From positions 1 through 43,501 of IMG/VR virus record IMGVR_UViG_3300005337_000012: a stretch of DNA of 43,501 bases; one strand, 5' to 3'. Every line of letters begins with the position of its first letter. Position 1 is the first letter of the stretch. The translations under genes were made by a program, and so were the position numbers. The DNA is from a virus. Of this stretch, positions 6,533 through 37,327 are shown in pieces. The notes beneath the pieces are model-generated. The model was not told where the DNA came from. It did not search any database and saw nothing but the letters and a program-made list of their open reading frames with translations.

Positions 6533-8893
6533 ATGAAGCACTTTCTAGCGTCCCGCTTTTACAGAATGGGATTTCACACGTTTCCCGTTCGTCTGTTACG
6601 GACACCGGAAGGGAAAGAAATTAAAAAGCCAATGGGTGAATGGCGTGATGTCCCTATGGATACCGTGACCATGGATTATCAAAACTACGGCGTTCGCTTG
6701 GATAAGCGCATTGTTGTGGTAGACGTTGACGTCAAGCGCGGTAAAAAGGGCGGTGAAACTTGGCTTAAAATGCGCGCTATGTTGACCGATGAAGCCCGTG
6801 AAATGCTAGACCAAACCGGAAAGCGCTTAATCTGCGGCACCATAAGCGGTGGGCGGCACCACTTTTTTAAATTGCCTGACGGTGTTCATATTTCAAAAAT
6901 AAACAAGGGCTTTCAGGATATTGACTTTCTGAGTGAAGGTTCATTCATTGTCGGCCCCGGTACGTACTTTGATACAGGCTTACCCTACCAAGTATTAGAT
7001 GGCTTTATTAATTGGGATTACATACCCGATTATCCAAAAGAGTGGCTCGCGGCAACCATTAAGCGCGAGCACCAACAACAAGCCCCAGACAGAGAATTTG
7101 ATAATACCCCCGGTGCCATCCATCAATTTACGCAGTATTGTATTAACTGCCCCATCGCTATTGAAAATAATCGGGGTGATGAAACCACTTTAAAGGTGGC
7201 ACTTGCCGCTAGAGACTTGGGGCTTGACGAAGAAACCGCATTCAAAATTATGTGGCATTCGTTTAATCCAAGATGTCAACCGCCTTGGGATGAGGGCGGC
7301 TTAGAAACCAAAATCCATAATGCTTACATGTACGGAAGCGGCGCCGCCGGTTCTCAAAACTTTTCTCACCTTATCGAATCCATGACCCCCGAAGTCTTGG
7401 AAGAGATGGAGGAGGGGCTAGCGTCTGAGGGCTACCGTTGGAGCCGCAATAAGAATGGAATAGTGACGCCTAACAATGAAAATAATACTATATGCTACCT
7501 TGCTGCTCCTAATCGCGGCGACTTCCAGAATGAAGTTTGGGGATTGTACCGTTTTAACCAATTTACACAAACCCCCGAGTATGCCGTGTCTCCTCCCTGG
7601 TACGACCCAAAAACAGCCCTGCAGAAGTCTTTGCAGTATCCCAAAGATATTACTGAAGCCGAAATCGGAAGTTTAAAACATTACCTTTTTCAAAAGTACG
7701 GGTATGAAACCGAGCGCTCTACGTGTGCACAGGCGATGGACTTTGTAAGTCGTGCCTACATGTATCATCCAATACGCTCATGGCTTAATGCGATTGAATG
7801 GGACGGCGTAGAGCGTTTAGATAATTGGTTGCCTATCTATCTCGGTACAGCTCGGAACGAGTATACAACTACAATCGGCCCTAAAGTATTGATGGGCGCA
7901 GTATCGCGTATATTCGAACCCGGCTGTAAAATGGACTACACACTTATTTTGGAAGGTGAGCAGGGCACCGGTAAGTCAACAGTGTGTGAAATCTTGGGGG
8001 TTTATCCCGATTGGTTTGCAACCATACGCCCCGACACTGATAAAGACACGCGCCAAGTACTTAGCCGTAAATGGATTATCGAGTTTGCCGAGATTGACGC
8101 GCTTAACCGGGCGGCTGATGCTTCCAAGATTAAAGCATTTATGACCTCGGCTACCGACACCTACCGCCCCCCATACGCGCACGCACCTCAAGACTTTCCC
8201 CGCCAATCGATTTTTATCGGTACAGTCAACCCCGGCGCGAGTTATGAATATTTAAATGACATAACCGGTGGCCGTCGTTTTTGGCCGGTTGAGACGGGCG
8301 ATATTAATTTAAAAGCGTTGAAGCGTGACGTAATTCAACTTTATGCCGAAGCCGTTCACCGCTATAAACAGGGTGAAATGCGGTATGTGGCAGGTAACTT
8401 GACCAATATACTAGAGGACGAAGTGCGCAAGCGTCAATTCGTTGACCCCTTCGTTGAAAAGATACGCGACTATTGGGAAGCTAATCCAGAAATTGACAAG
8501 CTCAATTTAAGATGGACGGCCATGACATTGCTAGGCCTGGATGAGCGCTTTTTCGATAAAAGAGTACGGGCTAGATTGGTTGATTCGTTTAGCTTCTTAG
8601 GCTGGAAAGTAACCGGAAGCGTTAAAGAGTACGCCATTGCGCCGGTAGTCGCTTCTAAAAGTTTTGATAATCACTTAGTGCAATTACCGGAATTGGTAAA
8701 TACGTTACGTGCCAATCTTGACAGCCATAAGTCGTATACATTGACCTACCTTTGCGCTAAATGGGACTTAGGCAAACTGAACCAAAAAGATAAACAGAAA
8801 TTAAGCCGAGCGCTGAGAGATATTGATGGCGTATCGTTTCAATACGATCTCACCACGAATGATAATAAAGTAGTAATTGAACCTTTGGAGTAG
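6533..8893 (+). CDS. Primase-polymerase / VirE-type helicase
   Basis: 786 residues; the replicative primase-helicase. The N-terminal ~180 residues match the bifunctional primase/polymerase (archaeo-eukaryotic) fold: V-V-D-V-D-V near 61, S-G-G-R-H-H-F-F near 105-112 and G-S-F-I-V-G-P-G-T-Y. The C-terminal half is a VirE-family/SF3-like ATPase. It has G-E-Q-G-T-G-K-S-T near 474-482 (Walker A), W-I-I-E-F-A-E-I-D (Walker B), I-G-T-V-N (sensor 1) and G-R-R-F-W-P-V (Arg finger). Known members prime and unwind DNA at the fork. AGG seven bases before the ATG supports the start, after a structured leader. It heads the replication module. Confidence 0.93.
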   Translation: MKHFLASRFYRMGFHTFPVRLLRTPEGKEIKKPMGEWRDVPMDTVTMDYQNYGVRLDKRIVVVDVDVKRGKKGGETWLKMRAMLTDEAREMLDQTGKRLICGTISGGRHHFFKLPDGVHISKINKGFQDIDFLSEGSFIVGPGTYFDTGLPYQVLDGFINWDYIPDYPKEWLAATIKREHQQQAPDREFDNTPGAIHQFTQYCINCPIAIENNRGDETTLKVALAARDLGLDEETAFKIMWHSFNPRCQPPWDEGGLETKIHNAYMYGSGAAGSQNFSHLIESMTPEVLEEMEEGLASEGYRWSRNKNGIVTPNNENNTICYLAAPNRGDFQNEVWGLYRFNQFTQTPEYAVSPPWYDPKTALQKSLQYPKDITEAEIGSLKHYLFQKYGYETERSTCAQAMDFVSRAYMYHPIRSWLNAIEWDGVERLDNWLPIYLGTARNEYTTTIGPKVLMGAVSRIFEPGCKMDYTLILEGEQGTGKSTVCEILGVYPDWFATIRPDTDKDTRQVLSRKWIIEFAEIDALNRAADASKIKAFMTSATDTYRPPYAHAPQDFPRQSIFIGTVNPGASYEYLNDITGGRRFWPVETGDINLKALKRDVIQLYAEAVHRYKQGEMRYVAGNLTNILEDEVRKRQFVDPFVEKIRDYWEANPEIDKLNLRWTAMTLLGLDERFFDKRVRARLVDSFSFLGWKVTGSVKEYAIAPVVASKSFDNHLVQLPELVNTLRANLDSHKSYTLTYLCAKWDLGKLNQKDKQKLSRALRDIDGVSFQYDLTTNDNKVVIEPLE

Positions 8894-8895
8894 AT

Positions 8896-9057
8896 ATGTC
8901 AATACTTTGGAAATTACATATGGTATGCCCTATCTGTATGTTCGGGTCGTTTGATACGTTCATAGGGGTTTTACTATTAGTAATCGTAGCCATGAATTAC
9001 GTTGTATACCCGTTTATGGATTTTGTGAGAAGGCACACTAACCGTGAAAAACCATAA
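8896..9057 (+). CDS. Small membrane protein between helicase genes
   Basis: 53 residues with a C-P-I-C pair and one membrane span at about 21-40 (T-F-I-G-V-L-L-L-V-I-V-A-M-N-Y-V-V). The basic tail (R-R-H-T-N-R-E-K-P) would face the cytoplasm. It starts two bases after the primase stop and overlaps the GTG start of the next gene by 14 bases. It may tether replication proteins to the membrane (inference). Confidence 0.55.
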   Translation: MSILWKLHMVCPICMFGSFDTFIGVLLLVIVAMNYVVYPFMDFVRRHTNREKP

Positions 9058-10801
9058 GCCCTTTGCATACCAAGAGGTAGGGATTAATCATCTCTGCTCA
9101 CCGCTTAAAGCGTCATACCTTGCCGATAAACCCGGCCTAGGTAAAACCTTTCAAAGCCTTTCAGCAGCCAAGCGATTGGGGGCTAAGTCGGTGCTCGTGG
9201 TATGCCCCGCAGCGATTGTCAACCAATGGCAAGAGGAGGTTAAAGACTTCCCTGGTTCTATGGTTGTGTCGTATGATGCGTTTTCGGTCGGTGTGATTAC
9301 GAAAGAACATAGAGACGCGCTGACATCTTTACGCGAAACACTGACGCATGCGCAGAAAGAACCAAAGCCGAACGATATTAATTGGCGTGCCAAAATACAC
9401 GACTTAACTCGCCAGATTGGCTCCATTGAGCGGACAATGCAACGCCGGAAAAAGGCTGAGCAATTGCGTAAACGTATTAGAGACATAGGAACTTTTGACG
9501 TTATAATTTGTGACGAAGCACATCTATTAAAAGAGAGTGGAGCGCATCGCACATCCTACATGTTCCATGGTGGGTATGGTATGGTGAAACTTGGCAAGAA
9601 AATAATGCTGCTTTCCGGTACACCAATCCTCAACCGCCCTAAAGAGCTGTATGCAGTACTGCAAGCTTGCTATCCCGAAGCGATTCACGACTGCCCCAAC
9701 TTTGAGGCGTTTGGGTATAAGTTTTGTGGCGTTCAATATGGTTTTAATGGTTCGGTTAATTTTAACGGTTGTACCAATCCTGAAGAATTAGGCAAACGTT
9801 TAAAGCCTTTTATGATTATGAGGACCCTGGATGTTTTAGGGGATAAAATCCCCAAAGTGACTTATGAAGACCAATATATACCTATAGAGGAATGTATAGA
9901 CGCTGAGCACGTTGCAACAAAAAGACGCTTGACAGGAGAAGCAAAAGTAGATAAACTAGTGTTAGATATTAAAAACGTCGCGGATAAAGTCAAAAAGTTA
10001 GTAGTCTTCTACTACCATGACTCAGTTAGGAAATCGTTACAGAAAGCATTTTCATACGCGCCCCTCATTAAAGGCGGTTTAACAAGCTTCCAAAAGACAG
10101 AACAGATTGAACGTTTTGTTAGATTGGGAAGTGATGTTATTCTAGTTCAATTGGGGGCGGGTGGTGTCGGCTTAGACGGTCTTCAAACTGTATGTAGTAA
10201 TGGCTACTTAGCCGAGTTAGACTGGACCCCTGCGCTAGAAGAACAGGCAGTTGGAAGATTACGGAGGTTAGGCCAAAAACATCATGTAACAATCTATCGC
10301 CCCGTCGGCACGCAACACGGTCTAGACCAGCGAATAGACGAAATGAATAAAGATAAAACCGTTGTTATTGAATCAATACTTAGTCACGTAACCCAAATTG
10401 GAGAATATATAACCATGTCTCAAGATTTAACCCCTGAAGTAATCGAACAACTTACACGTTTGGCCGATGCTGCTGAAACCATCGTCGCCCGTTTAACCGG
10501 TGAAGCTGCGGCACCTGCAAAAGCGAAACGTGGAACTGCTGCGCCAAAAGCTGCACCAAAAGCTGCCGGTATTACCCATGAGCAAGCCCGTGAAGCTATC
10601 GTCGGCGAGATGAACGCCCACGAAGGTAAAGAGTTGGTTAAAAAAGATGCTTACAAAGCTCACCTTAAATCAGCTTGGGGCGTCGAAAACTTAAACGACG
10701 TAGACGCTGACGACTTGCAAAAACTGGTTGATAGCTCAATCTCTGCAATGCAAGAAGCAGCTTCCAAAAAACCAGTTGCGGCCACAAACGACGACATTTA
10801 A
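9044..10801 (+). CDS. SNF2-type DEAH helicase with an extra C-terminal domain
   Basis: 585 residues from a GTG start. Motifs: D-K-P-G-L-G-K-T (28-35, Walker A), I-I-C-D-E-A-H near 153-159, L-L-S-G-T-P-I-L (motif III) and Q-A-V-G-R-L-R-R-L-G-Q near 400 (motif VI). This is the compact SNF2 helicase common in phage replication modules, which probably remodels forks or aids recombination. The family normally ends soon after motif VI. Here about 128 more residues follow: an Ala/Lys/Pro-rich linker, a small helical domain and a terminal T-N-D-D-I. An internal ATG at 10415 with GGAG at 10400-10403 could make this tail as a separate protein. Confidence 0.9.
   Translation: MKNHKPFAYQEVGINHLCSPLKASYLADKPGLGKTFQSLSAAKRLGAKSVLVVCPAAIVNQWQEEVKDFPGSMVVSYDAFSVGVITKEHRDALTSLRETLTHAQKEPKPNDINWRAKIHDLTRQIGSIERTMQRRKKAEQLRKRIRDIGTFDVIICDEAHLLKESGAHRTSYMFHGGYGMVKLGKKIMLLSGTPILNRPKELYAVLQACYPEAIHDCPNFEAFGYKFCGVQYGFNGSVNFNGCTNPEELGKRLKPFMIMRTLDVLGDKIPKVTYEDQYIPIEECIDAEHVATKRRLTGEAKVDKLVLDIKNVADKVKKLVVFYYHDSVRKSLQKAFSYAPLIKGGLTSFQKTEQIERFVRLGSDVILVQLGAGGVGLDGLQTVCSNGYLAELDWTPALEEQAVGRLRRLGQKHHVTIYRPVGTQHGLDQRIDEMNKDKTVVIESILSHVTQIGEYITMSQDLTPEVIEQLTRLADAAETIVARLTGEAAAPAKAKRGTAAPKAAPKAAGITHEQAREAIVGEMNAHEGKELVKKDAYKAHLKSAWGVENLNDVDADDLQKLVDSSISAMQEAASKKPVAATNDDI
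10415..10801 (+). other. Possible internal in-frame gene (helicase C-terminal domain)
   Basis: In-frame ATG with GGAG 11 bases upstream would give a 128-residue protein. It would comprise a helix, a K-A-K-R-G-T-A-A-P-K-A-A-P-K-A-A linker, an acidic helical domain and an ending in N-D-D-I. Base composition shifts here towards Ala codons compared with the helicase core, which fits a fused formerly separate gene. Whether both forms are made cannot be seen. Confidence 0.35.
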
Positions 10802-13189: not shown

Positions 13190-13627
13190 ATGACTCAAGA
13201 TTATTACGGGACAAAATTCGTTACAGCATGGCCGCAAATTAAATATGTTAATGATAACGGTAATTACCCGCCAGGTAACTTAGATGGTTACGCTGTAAAG
13301 TACCCCGATGGTTACATTTCCTGGTCGCCTAAAGCAGTGTTCGAGGAAGCTTACCAGCCAATTACATCACTTAGTTTCGGACATGCTGTCGTTGCTTTAA
13401 AAGCTGGACATAAAGTTGCGCGTTCCGGTTGGAATGGGAAAGGGATGTTCCTCTATCTTGTCCCTGAAAATGTCTACCCGGCTCAAACTAAAGCTGCGTT
13501 AGAACATTTTGGCGATAGAGTCCCTTATGGTGCGTACATCGCTATGAAGACAGCTCAAGAGAACGTTGTACCTTGGCTTGCATCCCAAACCGATGTTTTA
13601 GCCAACGACTGGCAAGTAATCGATTAA
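13190..13627 (+). CDS. DUF2829 / Tad2-like protein (candidate anti-Thoeris)
   Basis: 145 residues. Residues 62-145 fit DUF2829: F-G-H-A-V-V-A-L-K-A-G-H-K-V-A-R, then G-W-N-G-K-G-M-F-L-Y-L-V (80-91), M-K-T-A (119-122), P-W-L-A-S-Q-T-D and D-W-Q-V. Tad2 proteins of this family are known to bind and sequester the cyclic ADP-ribose-type signal of Thoeris defence; some bind other nucleotide signals. The first ~55 residues (Y-Y-G-T-K to S-W-S-P-K-A-V-F) are an N-terminal extension often fused to DUF2829 in phages. GGAG before the ATG. It is unusual in lying between the SSB and polymerase genes. Activity is inferred from family. Confidence 0.8.
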   Translation: MTQDYYGTKFVTAWPQIKYVNDNGNYPPGNLDGYAVKYPDGYISWSPKAVFEEAYQPITSLSFGHAVVALKAGHKVARSGWNGKGMFLYLVPENVYPAQTKAALEHFGDRVPYGAYIAMKTAQENVVPWLASQTDVLANDWQVID

Positions 13628-16571: not shown

Positions 16572-16946
16572 TTAGCGGTTGTGCTTCTCTCTAACGTCTC
16601 GCATATCCAGCATTAACCCTTTAAGCGTTTCAGCCATGAGGGCATTGGTTAGGTTAATACCGTTAAGTATTTCGGTCTGTCTCACCATAGTGGCTTGGAT
16701 TGAATCAACACCCATAGTTACTCCATACAACTGTTTTGGTACGTCCTCCAATAGCTTAGCAAGATGCTCAAGTTTAGCCAAGGTCTCACTCAGTACCTGA
16801 GCCTGACTTATAGGCATTATGCCCTCATCCTCTTTCTTTTTACTGTATAGCGCTTTAAGCCCCTCTAACCCGATGCCCCCGGCTAACATAAGACCGGCGG
16901 CAACAAGGGATAGTTCGGGGGAGACTGTGGGCATATTGAAGCTCAT
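16572..16946 (-). CDS. Membrane-anchored coiled-coil protein (holin-like candidate)
   Basis: 124 residues. One hydrophobic segment at about 12-32 (L-S-L-V-A-A-G-L-M-L-A-G-G-I-G-L), then K-K-K, then about 85 residues of amphipathic helix (T-L-A-K-L-E-H-L-A-K-L-L). Size and position beside DUF1353 suggest a holin or spanin-like lysis protein. Holins are too diverse for motif assignment, so this is positional inference. It starts one base before the end of the xylanase gene. Confidence 0.6.
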   Translation of the reverse strand: MSFNMPTVSPELSLVAAGLMLAGGIGLEGLKALYSKKKEDEGIMPISQAQVLSETLAKLEHLAKLLEDVPKQLYGVTMGVDSIQATMVRQTEILNGINLTNALMAETLKGLMLDMRDVREKHNR

Positions 16947-16947
16947 G

Positions 16948-17988
16948 CTATTTCACCGGAAGTAGAAAGTAATTAGACTTTAGAAGCCTTAGCATTTCAT
17001 TATAAGCCGGTTTAGGTGCGAGTGCAGCATCACGCGAAAGGGGGATAAACGTTGGTTGAAAACTATACGGGTCGGCTATTCCCCAAGTAGTAAAGGACTT
17101 GCAATTCGATACTGACAGGCAAGCGTAAAGGGCATTGTAATAGTTTTGCGCTTGGACAGTAGCCCTGGTAGCTGCGTCTTTCGAAGCCGGCTGTAATCCA
17201 CTTGCATCGTATTCTGTTACCGCAACCCGCATACCCATACCAGCAAACTTACCCAGCTCAGTTTTATATTGTGATTGAGGGATAGCCGTATCTGAGTACT
17301 CGTGCATTTGGTAGCCAACCGCATCGATTGGTACGCCCTGAGCGCGCAGAGCCTTAATCATTGTGACTTGAAATCGTGATTTCACCGGGTCATTCTCTGT
17401 ACCAAAATCGTTATAAAAAAGGATTGCGTCGGGGTCGGCCTGTCTTGCCGCTTGGTAAGCTAAAGCAATATACTCGGGACCGATGACTCGGAGGAAGATA
17501 TTATCCTGATATCCGTTACCGTGTTTTTCAATCGCTTCGTTTACTACGTCCCACTCTTGTACCTTACCTTTGTAGTGGGTCATCACTTGCGTGATATGGT
17601 TTTGCATAATCGCAATTAATTCATCGCGGGTAAAAGTTCCGTTTTTAATCCAATCCGGTAGAGATGCATCGACGCCCCAAACCAATGTGTGCCCATGGAT
17701 ACGCATATTGTTGGCCTGAGCGAATGCGACAATTTGGTCACCCCAATAGTAGTGAAATGCCCCTTGTTGTGGCTCCGTTTCTACCCACTTCAATTCATTC
17801 TCTGGTGTAATCTGATTGAACTCAGAGGCCAGTAGGTTTTGGTATGAAGCATCGGGGGTAAAACGCCAAATGGAACCGGCAGAGCCGATTAAAAACTGTC
17901 TAGCGTCCGCCGCTTGCCGTAGCGTATCCGCTTGGGCGGTGCTGAGGGACAGAAGTAAGCAGGCTAAAGCAAGGGCTAATTTACGCAT
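16948..17988 (-). CDS. Secreted GH10 endo-1,4-beta-xylanase
   Basis: 346 residues. A Sec signal peptide (1-20: M-R-K, hydrophobic core, S-T-A-Q-A cleavage) is followed by a complete GH10 barrel. H100 lies in H-G-H-T-L-V-W, N150-E151 in W-D-V-V-N-E (acid/base), Q227 and H229 in G-Y-Q-M-H, and E259 in V-T-E-Y-D (nucleophile). The C-terminal T-T-W-G-I-A-D-P-Y-S-F loop completes the site. GH10 enzymes cleave beta-1,4-xylan internally. The usual T-E-L-D is T-E-Y-D here. No carbohydrate-binding module. It lies between an SGNH-esterase tail gene and lysis-type genes, and its ribosome site sits in a hairpin. It is probably host-acquired; it may clear xylan-like exopolysaccharide or release sugars. 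Confidence 0.93.
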   Translation of the reverse strand: MRKLALALACLLLSLSTAQADTLRQAADARQFLIGSAGSIWRFTPDASYQNLLASEFNQITPENELKWVETEPQQGAFHYYWGDQIVAFAQANNMRIHGHTLVWGVDASLPDWIKNGTFTRDELIAIMQNHITQVMTHYKGKVQEWDVVNEAIEKHGNGYQDNIFLRVIGPEYIALAYQAARQADPDAILFYNDFGTENDPVKSRFQVTMIKALRAQGVPIDAVGYQMHEYSDTAIPQSQYKTELGKFAGMGMRVAVTEYDASGLQPASKDAATRATVQAQNYYNALYACLSVSNCKSFTTWGIADPYSFQPTFIPLSRDAALAPKPAYNEMLRLLKSNYFLLPVK

Positions 17989-17992
17989 ATAA

Positions 17993-18024
17993 AGATAGAC
18001 TCCAATTGTTTATATAATCTATCT
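17993..18024 (-). promoter_or_regulatory. Hairpin holding the xylanase ribosome site
   Basis: On the minus strand AGATAGA and TCTATCT (7 bp) flank an 18-base loop containing TATATAA and, against the stem, TTGGAG. This is the only sizeable gap in this part of the operon. The fold could limit xylanase translation, or the TATATAA could be a weak internal promoter. Confidence 0.45.
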
Positions 18025-19557
18025 CTATGATAACCCAGTTTGTATAGTTATTTGTGCGGCTTGTAAACCATAACCTAAGTTTGTTAAGTGGGTTTTATCA
18101 GCGTTGTAAATTGTAGTATCGCCTGTTATGACTGCACAGTTGGCGGGGGTGTCGTCGAAGTGTGGGTCAAGTGATAAGTCTATGCAACCATACGCCCCAG
18201 CGGCTAAGAGTGCGCCACCCGGTTTAACCCCTTGACGTATCAAATTATTAAAGTCAAAGATTTTTTGAGCGAATGAATTAGTACTAGCACCGGAAGGGGG
18301 GATAGTCCAGGTATAGATTCTAGTAAACTTACCCGTACCGCTAAGCAATGCGGTTAATGCACACAGGGAGTTAAACGCTGTCTGCGCGCTTACGCCACTA
18401 TTAATGATGTCGTTCGTACCACCCTCAATAAACAGTATGTGTCTGTTTGAGGATACGCTAGGGGGTGTAAAATTAACTAAACCTGTGGCGTAGTTGGCGC
18501 GATTTACCATTTGCCCAAGTGTCTGACCCGGCACCCCGACATTTTTAAAGAAGCGTGTTGTAGGGTTAGCTAAGCCGGCAATAAATTGATGTGGGTAGCT
18601 CCCTGTACCTTGTACTGTAGGGTCGGGAGTGTTGGTGGAGTTTTGACCGTAGGTAAGTGAATTACCTTCAAAGTACCAAGCATCTACGAAGTATTGTTCG
18701 ACTCTAGATTTGGCTAAGCCGTAGTAAGATATTTGATTAGCTTCAATGGCGTCACGGTACGCCCTCGCCACTATGGTGCCAACCATAAACTCGCTTAGGG
18801 ACATAATCGCCTTAGATGTACCACCCAACGCCGAGCCAACTTCAAGACCCGCAAGACCGTTTGTACCCGATGCCCCCCGTAATATGGGGATACTGTTACC
18901 TTGTACTTTACTATCCCCATAGTCTGCTTCAATTGATACCGTCATGGGGGTAGTTAAGGTAATAGTATTTGGGCCTAAAGAAGGCGTTTCACCCGTCGAT
19001 AATTGGATGACCGTACCCGATGTTTTATAGACAAATGTAAAGTTACCGGTTACGTTACCAAATAGATTGACTGCACTCCCGTTACCGGTTCTAACCTGCA
19101 TAGCCGTCAACATTGCAATAGGCTGAACCATAGAGATACCGCTAGCTACAAGGTAGGAAGTACCTAGAAATTCCATAACCGGCTTACCTGCCATGGTGTC
19201 CAGTACACCGGCATTAACAATACGGGGCTGAGCTGCGGCAGTCGCTTGAACTAAATCTAAGTTACTGCCCACGTTGCCTGATTGGTCGTAGACTTTGGAT
19301 ACAAAGCCGCTACCCGTACCAACAAAGGATAACAAACCCGCTACATTTAGCTCACCAACGTTCGGGCCGGAAGGGATAAAACCAATATCTAAAACGGCGC
19401 TATCTGAAGAGCGGCGCACTTGGATAAGATTGCCTGTCCAATTTGGGTTTAATCTACGTAAACCGTAGACGGCAAAATTGGTCAACGTCGGAACTGACGC
19501 CAATGCTGCGGGGCTGCCAGGGAAGTCAATACCTGCGTATTTTCTCGATAAAGGCAT
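18025..19557 (-). CDS. Tail protein with lectin-like domain and SGNH esterase domain
   Basis: 510 residues. The first ~280 contain an arabinofuranosidase-B/LamG-like sandwich: Y-G-L-R-R-L, V-R-R-S-S-D, V-Y-D-Q-S-G (89-94) and P-R-I-V-N-A-G-V, a module I recall from phage tail fibres. Residues ~290-510 are an SGNH/GDSL hydrolase: E-G-N-S (S300, block I), G in V-G-V-P-G-Q-T (block II), G-G-T-N-D (N382, block III) and D-K-T-H (D487, H490, block V). Such enzymes deacetylate surface glycans during adsorption. Next to the collar fibre gene, so probably virion-associated; next to the xylanase, so perhaps acting on acetylated xylan-like glycan. Confidence 0.85.
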   Translation of the reverse strand: MPLSRKYAGIDFPGSPAALASVPTLTNFAVYGLRRLNPNWTGNLIQVRRSSDSAVLDIGFIPSGPNVGELNVAGLLSFVGTGSGFVSKVYDQSGNVGSNLDLVQATAAAQPRIVNAGVLDTMAGKPVMEFLGTSYLVASGISMVQPIAMLTAMQVRTGNGSAVNLFGNVTGNFTFVYKTSGTVIQLSTGETPSLGPNTITLTTPMTVSIEADYGDSKVQGNSIPILRGASGTNGLAGLEVGSALGGTSKAIMSLSEFMVGTIVARAYRDAIEANQISYYGLAKSRVEQYFVDAWYFEGNSLTYGQNSTNTPDPTVQGTGSYPHQFIAGLANPTTRFFKNVGVPGQTLGQMVNRANYATGLVNFTPPSVSSNRHILFIEGGTNDIINSGVSAQTAFNSLCALTALLSGTGKFTRIYTWTIPPSGASTNSFAQKIFDFNNLIRQGVKPGGALLAAGAYGCIDLSLDPHFDDTPANCAVITGDTTIYNADKTHLTNLGYGLQAAQITIQTGLS

Positions 19558-35707: not shown

Positions 35708-37327
35708 CTAAGCGGGGAAAACTATGTCTGATTCTACCACATAATTATGCTTTGACTTATGGTTGTTGGATAGCATGATATCTGCGAATTGGAGGCAACC
35801 ATACCGCAGGTTATCCATTACGTCTTCATACGGATGTTTTTCGTCAATCGTCTCGGTTATGTCGCCGTTTTTATCTGTCAAGTATTTATATTCACCTTGC
35901 AATGCGGCAATAAGGGTGGGAGTTTTATCCGGGTTATGGATGTAGATACGCTCTCTGTCATTGTATCGGGTATTAAATAGGGATTGAAGTAGTGTGATAC
36001 CCGAGTGTAGGCGATTTTTAGCCCCCAATACTTTATCGATTTGAAGGGGGTGAAGACCGTGTTTTTGTAAAATGTCATGGTCGCTAAACGATTTTTTCTC
36101 TTGCCATGGTTTTACTTGGCCGGCGGGGTCCCCCGTAAAAATGTAATTATAGCCGGCGTTTTCTGCTGTGGATATATCACGGTAAGGGTGGAGCTTATTA
36201 TACCTATCCATGGTCGAAAGAACCGCCAACGCGAGTTCTTCTGTCGAACCTCTCGGCCTACCTTGAGAGCCGTCAAGCACAACCTCGTGAAAAACGTCAA
36301 CACAATAATACTCATCAACCTGCATAAACAAGGCTGAGCAAACACGGCCAAAGTCAAACGATACGATAATGGGAAACTCGGGATTGGGGGTCCAAAGATT
36401 TTGGGGGTTTTTAATCATATCTCGAGTAGGCTGTACCGCCTTAACGTGGAGCCCGTAATCAAACATATCAATTACCTTACCCTCTAAGCTCATCGTATAA
36501 CTTATGTCTACTTCACGGGCTAAACCCGATTTTGTGTACCGTTTTTGTTGTTCAGCGTACCAAATATCATCGTGCTTTGGGTGAGAGCGCCAATGCAATG
36601 TAATCTTTTCCGGCTGGTCTTCAATTCGACGGTTTGCCATTTTGGCAAAACGATTATTACCGCCGTATGGGGTGGATACGGCTAAACGGCAGGGTGTCGT
36701 TTGACCGCACGCTTCCCAAGCCGCATCTGCATTTTCCCAAAAAGCGAACTCATCAAACAAGGCTACCGTATTACGGCCTGACCTACCAAAAGAAGCGTTC
36801 GCGGTTTCCCCTACAATGGTAGCCCGGTTTTCAGGGTTTACCATTTTGAGGTAGGTCATGTGCCTTGGCTCAGAAAAACCCATAGGGCGCATAAACTTAG
36901 GGAGATAGCGAAAAACTAGACGGACTTTTTCAAACAGGGTACTAATATCCCCCGTTTTATCTACCTCGTTTACGTTCCTTGAGCCGAGTCTACCAGAGAA
37001 ATCGGGTATAAATAACCAACAGTACTCAATAACGCAAATACTAATCCACGAAACCCCCATATCCCGGCTCTTCTCAACCAATAAGTCCTTACCTGACAGG
37101 ATAGAGTTATATATTTGAAGTACGACGGGCCGCTGAAATTCGTACAATTCAAACGGTACAACGCCAATAGGCTTATTGTTCGGGCCTGTACGTGGGTCAT
37201 ACGTCATAGCATACCAGTCAAACCAGTACAGTATGTCTCGTTTGCACCGTATTTTTTCTATGGCGATGAGTTTTTCATCATGTTTAATACGAGCGAATTT
37301 TGCTACCCGCTCCACCATATTAGCCAT
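35708..37327 (-). CDS. terL: Terminase large subunit
   Basis: 539 residues. ATPase: L-V-E-K-S-R-D-M-G-V-S-W (83-94, Walker A variant) and V-A-L-F-D-E-F (187-193, Walker B with catalytic E). Coupling motif near L-A-V-S-T-P-Y-G-G. C-terminal RNase H-like nuclease: I-V-S-F-D-F-G-R-V and a late D-N-L-R-Y-G. It cuts and pumps phage DNA into the procapsid. The start overlaps the stop of the upstream gene by one base. Confidence 0.93.
   Translation of the reverse strand: MANMVERVAKFARIKHDEKLIAIEKIRCKRDILYWFDWYAMTYDPRTGPNNKPIGVVPFELYEFQRPVVLQIYNSILSGKDLLVEKSRDMGVSWISICVIEYCWLFIPDFSGRLGSRNVNEVDKTGDISTLFEKVRLVFRYLPKFMRPMGFSEPRHMTYLKMVNPENRATIVGETANASFGRSGRNTVALFDEFAFWENADAAWEACGQTTPCRLAVSTPYGGNNRFAKMANRRIEDQPEKITLHWRSHPKHDDIWYAEQQKRYTKSGLAREVDISYTMSLEGKVIDMFDYGLHVKAVQPTRDMIKNPQNLWTPNPEFPIIVSFDFGRVCSALFMQVDEYYCVDVFHEVVLDGSQGRPRGSTEELALAVLSTMDRYNKLHPYRDISTAENAGYNYIFTGDPAGQVKPWQEKKSFSDHDILQKHGLHPLQIDKVLGAKNRLHSGITLLQSLFNTRYNDRERIYIHNPDKTPTLIAALQGEYKYLTDKNGDITETIDEKHPYEDVMDNLRYGCLQFADIMLSNNHKSKHNYVVESDIVFPA

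Follow-up and report, generated by a model that had tools for sequence, protein, structure and literature searches.

What use would a tailed phage have for a xylanase-type enzyme encoded among its late genes? The question is raised by a virus record of 43,501 bases in IMG/VR (the window: the whole stretch of DNA that was analysed), which looks like the genome of an uncultured, podovirus-like tailed phage and in which a GH10 gene lies next to the gene of a tail protein with an SGNH hydrolase domain. A preliminary description of this DNA had taken the two genes to be a functional pair directed against a xylan-like polymer; its observations are confirmed by the present analysis, and its interpretation is partly supported.

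Genomic context of the GH10/SGNH locus

The plus strand of the window carries genes for a primase/helicase, a helicase, an exonuclease, a ssDNA-binding protein, a family A DNA polymerase and a resolvase. The minus strand carries a late module with the terminase large subunit (TerL), a head-tail adaptor and a major-head-like protein, and then large tail-side proteins. The GH10/SGNH locus occupies the end of this module opposite TerL (Table 1), where the order of transcription is the 1410-aa protein, the collar/fibre-like protein, the 136-aa protein, the SGNH protein, GH10, the 124-aa protein and the DUF1353 protein. The coordinates and lengths of the GH10 and SGNH reading frames and the 36-base gap between them (17989-18024) are exactly those given in the preliminary description. 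Scanned for promoters and terminators, the region showed no excess of sites over chance.

Table 1. Features of the late module, in order of transcription
Feature	Position	Strand	Evidence or remark
Terminase large subunit	35708-37327	-	start of late module
Large late protein, 1410 aa	20943..25175	-	no family match; tail or internal virion protein by position
Tail collar/fibre-like protein, 266 aa	20146..20946	-	phrog_38064 tail collar 2.2e-4; PF07484 0.0045, below cut-off
Small late protein, 136 aa	19575..19985	-	no family match
Tail-associated SGNH/GDSL acylhydrolase, 510 aa	18025..19557	-	PF13472, PF00657, PF09206 partial; minor tail protein matches
GH10 endo-beta-1,4-glycanase (predicted), 346 aa	16948..17988	-	PF00331, 1xyz match, AlphaFold, Foldseek
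Putative Sec signal peptide of GH10, MRKLALALACLLLSLSTAQA	17929..17988	-	inferred from hydropathy and n/h/c layout
124-aa protein	16572..16946	-	one predicted N-terminal membrane helix, long helical tail; marginal PHROG match only
DUF1353 protein, 179 aa	16010..16549	-	PF07087 2.9e-14; phrog_1158 8.7e-22; HD-Y motif

Of the two genes that follow GH10, the first encodes the 124-aa protein, which is holin- or spanin-like by position only. The DUF1353 protein, with its TDGASVP and HDAAY motifs, belongs to a family that PHROGs labels tail assembly chaperone. Phospholipase A2 activity has been demonstrated for one member of this family (PMC11525133), and for the phage members a phospholipase reading may be better than the chaperone label. 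Together with the small membrane protein, the DUF1353 protein would give this part of the operon the appearance of a gene set for attacking the envelope.

The GH10 protein and its SGNH neighbor

The product of the GH10 gene is a true member of its family. It matches PF00331 over 308 of the 311 profile positions (E 6.6e-93; 311.8 bits against a curated cut-off of 22.1), its closest solved structure by sequence is that of Clostridium thermocellum XynZ (1xyz, E 1.1e-76), and its AlphaFold model, built with 29 relatives (pLDDT 91.6), superimposes on the leading GH10 structures, bacterial and fungal xylanases, with Foldseek TMt values of 0.92-0.94. The two catalytic glutamates, which the preliminary description had placed correctly, lie on strands 4 and 7 of the (beta/alpha)8 barrel: the acid/base E151 in WDVVNE (146-151; codon 17536-17538) and the nucleophile E259 in VTEYD (257-261; codon 17212-17214). 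Along with K67, H100, W104 and H229, both are invariant across 30 aligned GH10s; E63, N64, Q227 and W302 are shared with nearly all aligned rows, and N150 is retained in the glycone site.

Bacterial GH10 xylanases (XynZ, 1xyz; Streptomyces XynAS9, 3wuf; Thermotoga Xyn10B, 3niy) have the same fold, both catalytic glutamates, the ENxxKW, GHTLVW and Q-x-H motifs and W302, at about 35-44% identity. Apart from being phage-borne, the window protein differs from them in Ser109, which replaces the Gln of the W-H-x-Q motif and is preceded by a two-residue insertion after W104 that is absent from the other 29 aligned rows, in Phe310, which replaces the second active-site Trp, and in a shortened C-terminal loop. 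The proximal glycone site is said, on the strength of work by Andrews et al. in 2000, to be linked to the discrimination between xylose and glucose, and Ser109 and Phe310 would correspond to the discriminating positions. Given these two departures from the usual xylanase set, specificity for xylan is not assured, and any confident assignment of xylan as the substrate is weakened. XynSPP2 is nevertheless an active xylanase despite a Ser at the first altered position, and variants at position -2/-3 alter the product pattern while GH10 family activity is retained (PMC6614494). Sequence and model together point with high probability to an active endo-beta-1,4-glycanase, for which xylan is the most likely, though not a secure, substrate.

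The N-terminus of the protein, MRKLALALACLLLSLSTAQA (residues 1-20) followed by D, is built in the n/h/c pattern of Sec type I signals and reaches a hydropathy peak of 2.72; the Sec signal reported earlier is thus predicted here as well, and export by this route is probable. The protein is a single compact domain that lacks a virion-anchoring domain. Its gene matches the phage in composition (GC 0.472, GC3 0.458), which rules out an island of foreign composition.

The SGNH protein contains the complete catalytic set with which it had been credited. Lipase_GDSL_2 (PF13472) matches residues 298-496 (E 4.2e-10; 40.9 bits against a cut-off of 32.9), PF00657 matches at 3.3e-6, and SGNH blocks I, II, III and V follow in order as GNS (S300), GQT, GGTND (N382) and DKTH (D487/H490). 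An N-terminal module (about residues 28-130) is 36-50% identical to phage minor tail and virion proteins, the matches being minor tail, virion or unnamed tail-module proteins of Gordonia, Arthrobacter, Microbacterium and Aphanizomenon phages; by homology to annotated virion and tail proteins, the SGNH protein is a predicted tail protein. The description of this N-terminus as a lectin-like domain is less secure, being backed by the identity to minor tail proteins and by a partial match to PF09206 (ArabFuran-catal; 73 of 315 positions, 27.8 bits against a cut-off of 25, E 1.7e-6). In line with that match, some N-terminal homologs are annotated as alpha-L-arabinofuranosidase; given that it covers so little of the profile, we read the N-terminus as a structural module and not as a second enzyme. 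The combination of an SGNH domain with an N-terminus of the minor-tail type makes the earlier proposal of a virion (tail-associated) esterase plausible. Structure prediction, which had been suggested for both proteins, succeeded for GH10, but the single-sequence model of the SGNH protein is unusable (pLDDT 34.8) because there were no relatives to align. In Microbacterium phage Fizzles (L122), gene 29 is homologous to the N-terminus of the SGNH protein and is directly followed by gene 30, an 'esterase'; these two genes are possibly the unfused form of its two parts.

Rarity, origin and company of viral GH10 genes

Genuine viral GH10s are rare, which agrees with the earlier remark that late operons of phages uncommonly contain a true GH10. 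A search of 50,697 INPHARED records with the window protein (E 1e-5) gave six matches, all of them 'Bacteriophage sp.' from human faeces, and viral origin was borne out for none (two of the six were opened). Read by eye, L027 (MT839786) contains a Bacteroides-type polysaccharide-utilisation locus and L028 (MT835631) Bacteroides-type chromosomal genes; both were rejected as phage GH10s. Two degenerate motif scans of 2.9 million IMG/VR contigs yielded, apart from the window, at least six records in which a viral GH10 is convincing (L033, L034, L035, L036, L039 and L133), a lower bound since the scans rely on exact short motifs. The same GH10 gene as in L033 is present in L032, and L037/L038 and L040 were set aside as their neighboring genes look bacterial. 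GH10 is absent from all 25 records with a related terminase, which have almost nothing but TerL in common with the window, so that the GH10 locus is not comparable by synteny.

With respect to origin, a single phage-specific GH10 clade, the outcome that the preliminary description had set against its own reading, is rejected: an AU test under long-branch-aware models disfavors the five viral rows as one clade (p 0.0005), and viral GH10s are scattered among bacterial ones. The GH10 of L033 groups with Heyndrickxia coagulans (support 98/92) and that of L034 with an acidobacterial MAG (100/98). This polyphyly implies that viruses captured GH10 genes from bacteria repeatedly. When the window and L033 proteins are constrained together, p is 0.147, and a shared origin of these two is compatible with the data. 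The window protein forms a long branch, which lies beside an Actinomycetota/Chloroflexota group in a first tree (81/87) and loses this placement in a second. Phylogeny did not, then, reveal the donor as the preliminary description had hoped: the best bacterial identity in an alignment-based scan is 44%, peptide scans run at strict settings on collections of viruses and of genomes gave no match, and genome samples from three phyla other than Pseudomonadota contained nothing closer than 44%, the third at a threshold so strict that even its own central genome gave no match.

Five of the six other viral GH10s are located in structural or tail-lysis regions. In L033, genes for Dit, a prophage-tail protein and a pectate-lyase-like fibre precede GH10, and an amidase/LysM lysin lies further downstream; in L035, GH10 has a Sec-type N-terminus and stands between large proteins, followed by an amidase endolysin, terminase and portal. 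Lysozyme-like and membrane-protein genes flank the GH10 of L036 (by eye, the lysozyme-like call being without Pfam or PHROG support), which, like that of L133, has no obvious signal peptide. The GH10 of L133 (7932-10079, 715 aa) adjoins a tape-measure-sized gene and has about 400 unmatched C-terminal residues. In L039, the gene immediately preceding GH10 (7995-9347) encodes a capsid-type S49 protease, and a portal gene lies upstream; this GH10 is without a signal and has an insert (beginning AAAHGLTNGQTAVIGQHSGSTP) inside the barrel after the acid/base strand, which we take to be a phage-tail-type repeat, and its sequence looks like that of a virion-borne protein. The exception is L034, in which a GH10 with a membrane anchor is found among genes for recombination and nucleotide metabolism.

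SGNH hydrolases scoring over the PF13472 cut-off, and confirmed by PF00657, are present in three of the six other GH10 records, and in three of the four longer than 40 kb. They are found in none of the 25 terminase-related records and in none of 40 viral contigs drawn by random 15-mer and not matched for host or habitat, one of which has a match below the cut-off. With the window excluded, Fisher p against the random contigs is 0.0013 for all records and 0.003 for those of 35 kb or more; counting the contig with the match below the cut-off raises these values to 0.005 and 0.012. The test covers six GH10 records and a post hoc hypothesis formed from the window. All three hydrolases are parts of large proteins (470-606 aa) that have a tail-type look in size and repeats and, for L033 and L133, also in their structural-module position. 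The functional pair of the preliminary description is thus favored by recurring co-occurrence, but the test is small and the adjacency is not repeated, SGNH being about 6 kb or more away from GH10 in the other phages. It is conceivable, although we put this forward tentatively and would not call it probable, that unrelated phages repeatedly assembled a two-enzyme attack on acylated beta-1,4 glycans from an SGNH esterase tail protein and a captured GH10 expressed with the tail or lysis genes, the latter being free and exported in some phages and apparently virion-borne in others.

A proposed two-step attack on one glycan and its alternatives

Starting from what is observed of the two enzyme families with their catalytic residues, the fold of GH10, the order of the genes, the rarity of viral GH10s, their repeated capture and their co-occurrence with SGNH, we infer export, timing, substrate and a two-step logic, and propose, with a probability of about 0.5, that both are late phage genes whose products attack the same extracellular glycan in succession. 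At adsorption, the SGNH tail esterase would strip acyl groups from a surface polysaccharide. The GH10, captured from a bacterium and made late, would be exported through Sec to the periplasm or to the outside, depending on the host; freed in quantity at lysis, it would cut the main chain of this polysaccharide or of a related beta-1,4-linked polymer, such as a capsule, an exopolysaccharide or a xylan-rich matrix, and so let the progeny leave and spread. In a Gram-negative host, Sec delivers proteins to the periplasm only, and bulk release of the enzyme would therefore come with lysis, whereas a Gram-positive host would secrete it while the infection is still under way. Counting against this explanation are the changes in the glycone site (Gln to Ser109, Trp to Phe310 and the two-residue insertion), the distance between SGNH and GH10 in other phages and the position of the L034 gene away from tail genes.

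The family fold and the Sec-type signal of GH10 would also suit an auxiliary metabolic gene whose exported product supplies the infected host, or surviving kin of it, with xylo-oligosaccharides released from the xylan of plants or algae, the SGNH protein being unrelated; a study of mangrove soil viruses described virus-encoded CAZymes, a GH10 xylanase among them, as auxiliary genes (PMC6460857). We consider this rather improbable, given that the gene belongs to the tail/lysis part with which the late operon ends, a stage at which nourishing the host brings the least benefit, that other viral GH10s cluster with tail or lysis genes and two of them have no obvious signal peptide (L036, L133), and that none of the window genes scanned was recognised as serving sugar uptake or the use of xylose. 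The compact single domain, the clear Sec-type signal and the missing virion anchor argue in turn against a tail depolymerase carried in the virion, in which the hydrophobic N-terminus would be a membrane or assembly feature or would be cleaved. Sec passage would, moreover, be unusual for such a protein, as phage structural proteins normally bypass Sec. We regard a virion-borne enzyme as unlikely here, even though the insert in the L039 barrel and the C-terminal extension in L133 show features expected of it, and tail depolymerases are a known kind, with xylanases listed among them (PMC5380687).

The altered substrate-site residues, the location of GH10 where a lysis cassette is expected and the fact that searches of Pfam, PHROGs, NCBIfam and PDB sequences recognised no endolysin among the window genes scanned could also suggest that the fold was repurposed as an exported endolysin acting on the beta-1,4 backbone of peptidoglycan. 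At its core, however, the active site is that of a xylanase, L033 and L035 have a separate amidase lysin in addition to GH10, and L036 has a lysozyme-like gene; we know of no GH10 that cuts peptidoglycan and hold this reading to be very improbable. We give even less credence to a captured passenger gene without a role in infection. The absence of GH10 from the TerL-related records is in line with such a passenger, as is the fact that the searches found no close relative; on the other side, the composition fits the phage, and the frame and all catalytic residues are intact although the closest relative found among bacteria is no more than 44% identical, which suggests long retention.

The enzymes with which phages attack polysaccharides are, as a rule, single depolymerases bound to the tail. 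If the two-step attack is real, a free exported glycanase combined with a tail esterase amounts to a division of labour between an entry enzyme and an exit enzyme, and points to hosts coated in an acylated beta-1,4 glycan; it also cautions that not every viral GH10 should be read as an auxiliary gene for the use of plant biomass as food. Viral GH10s (PMC6460857) and phage polysaccharide deacetylases (PMC5380687, PMC6872550) are each already known; as far as checked, what is new is that a late operon encodes a free, probably exported GH10 next to a probable tail esterase, and that the two kinds of enzyme co-occur across unrelated phages. In the soil virome study (Jin et al., 2019; PMC6460857), a GH10 xylanase was likewise found on viral contigs, but the mean length of the assembled contigs was 616-687 bp and the genes were given an auxiliary metabolic role, in contrast to a 43.5-kb record with a late operon and an esterase neighbor. 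The window SGNH protein resembles the tail deacetylases of G7C (gp63.1), the Vi phages and phage c341 (PMC6872550, PMC5380687) in being a predicted tail-type protein with a putative ester-cleaving domain, which would have a surface polysaccharide as its target; unlike them, it has an N-terminal module of the minor-tail type of Gordonia and Arthrobacter phages. A xylanase of Caulobacter phage Cr30 is listed among phage depolymerases (PMC5380687), another phage enzyme comparable to the window GH10, which has no match in an isolate phage at E 1e-5; if Cr30 is among the 50,697 records, the two are, as far as this search detects, different proteins.

Elsewhere in the window, adjoining the DNA polymerase gene, positions 13190-13627 (+) encode a Tad2-like protein (PF11195, E 2e-26; phrog_872, 2e-47), which probably inhibits the anti-phage defence system Thoeris.
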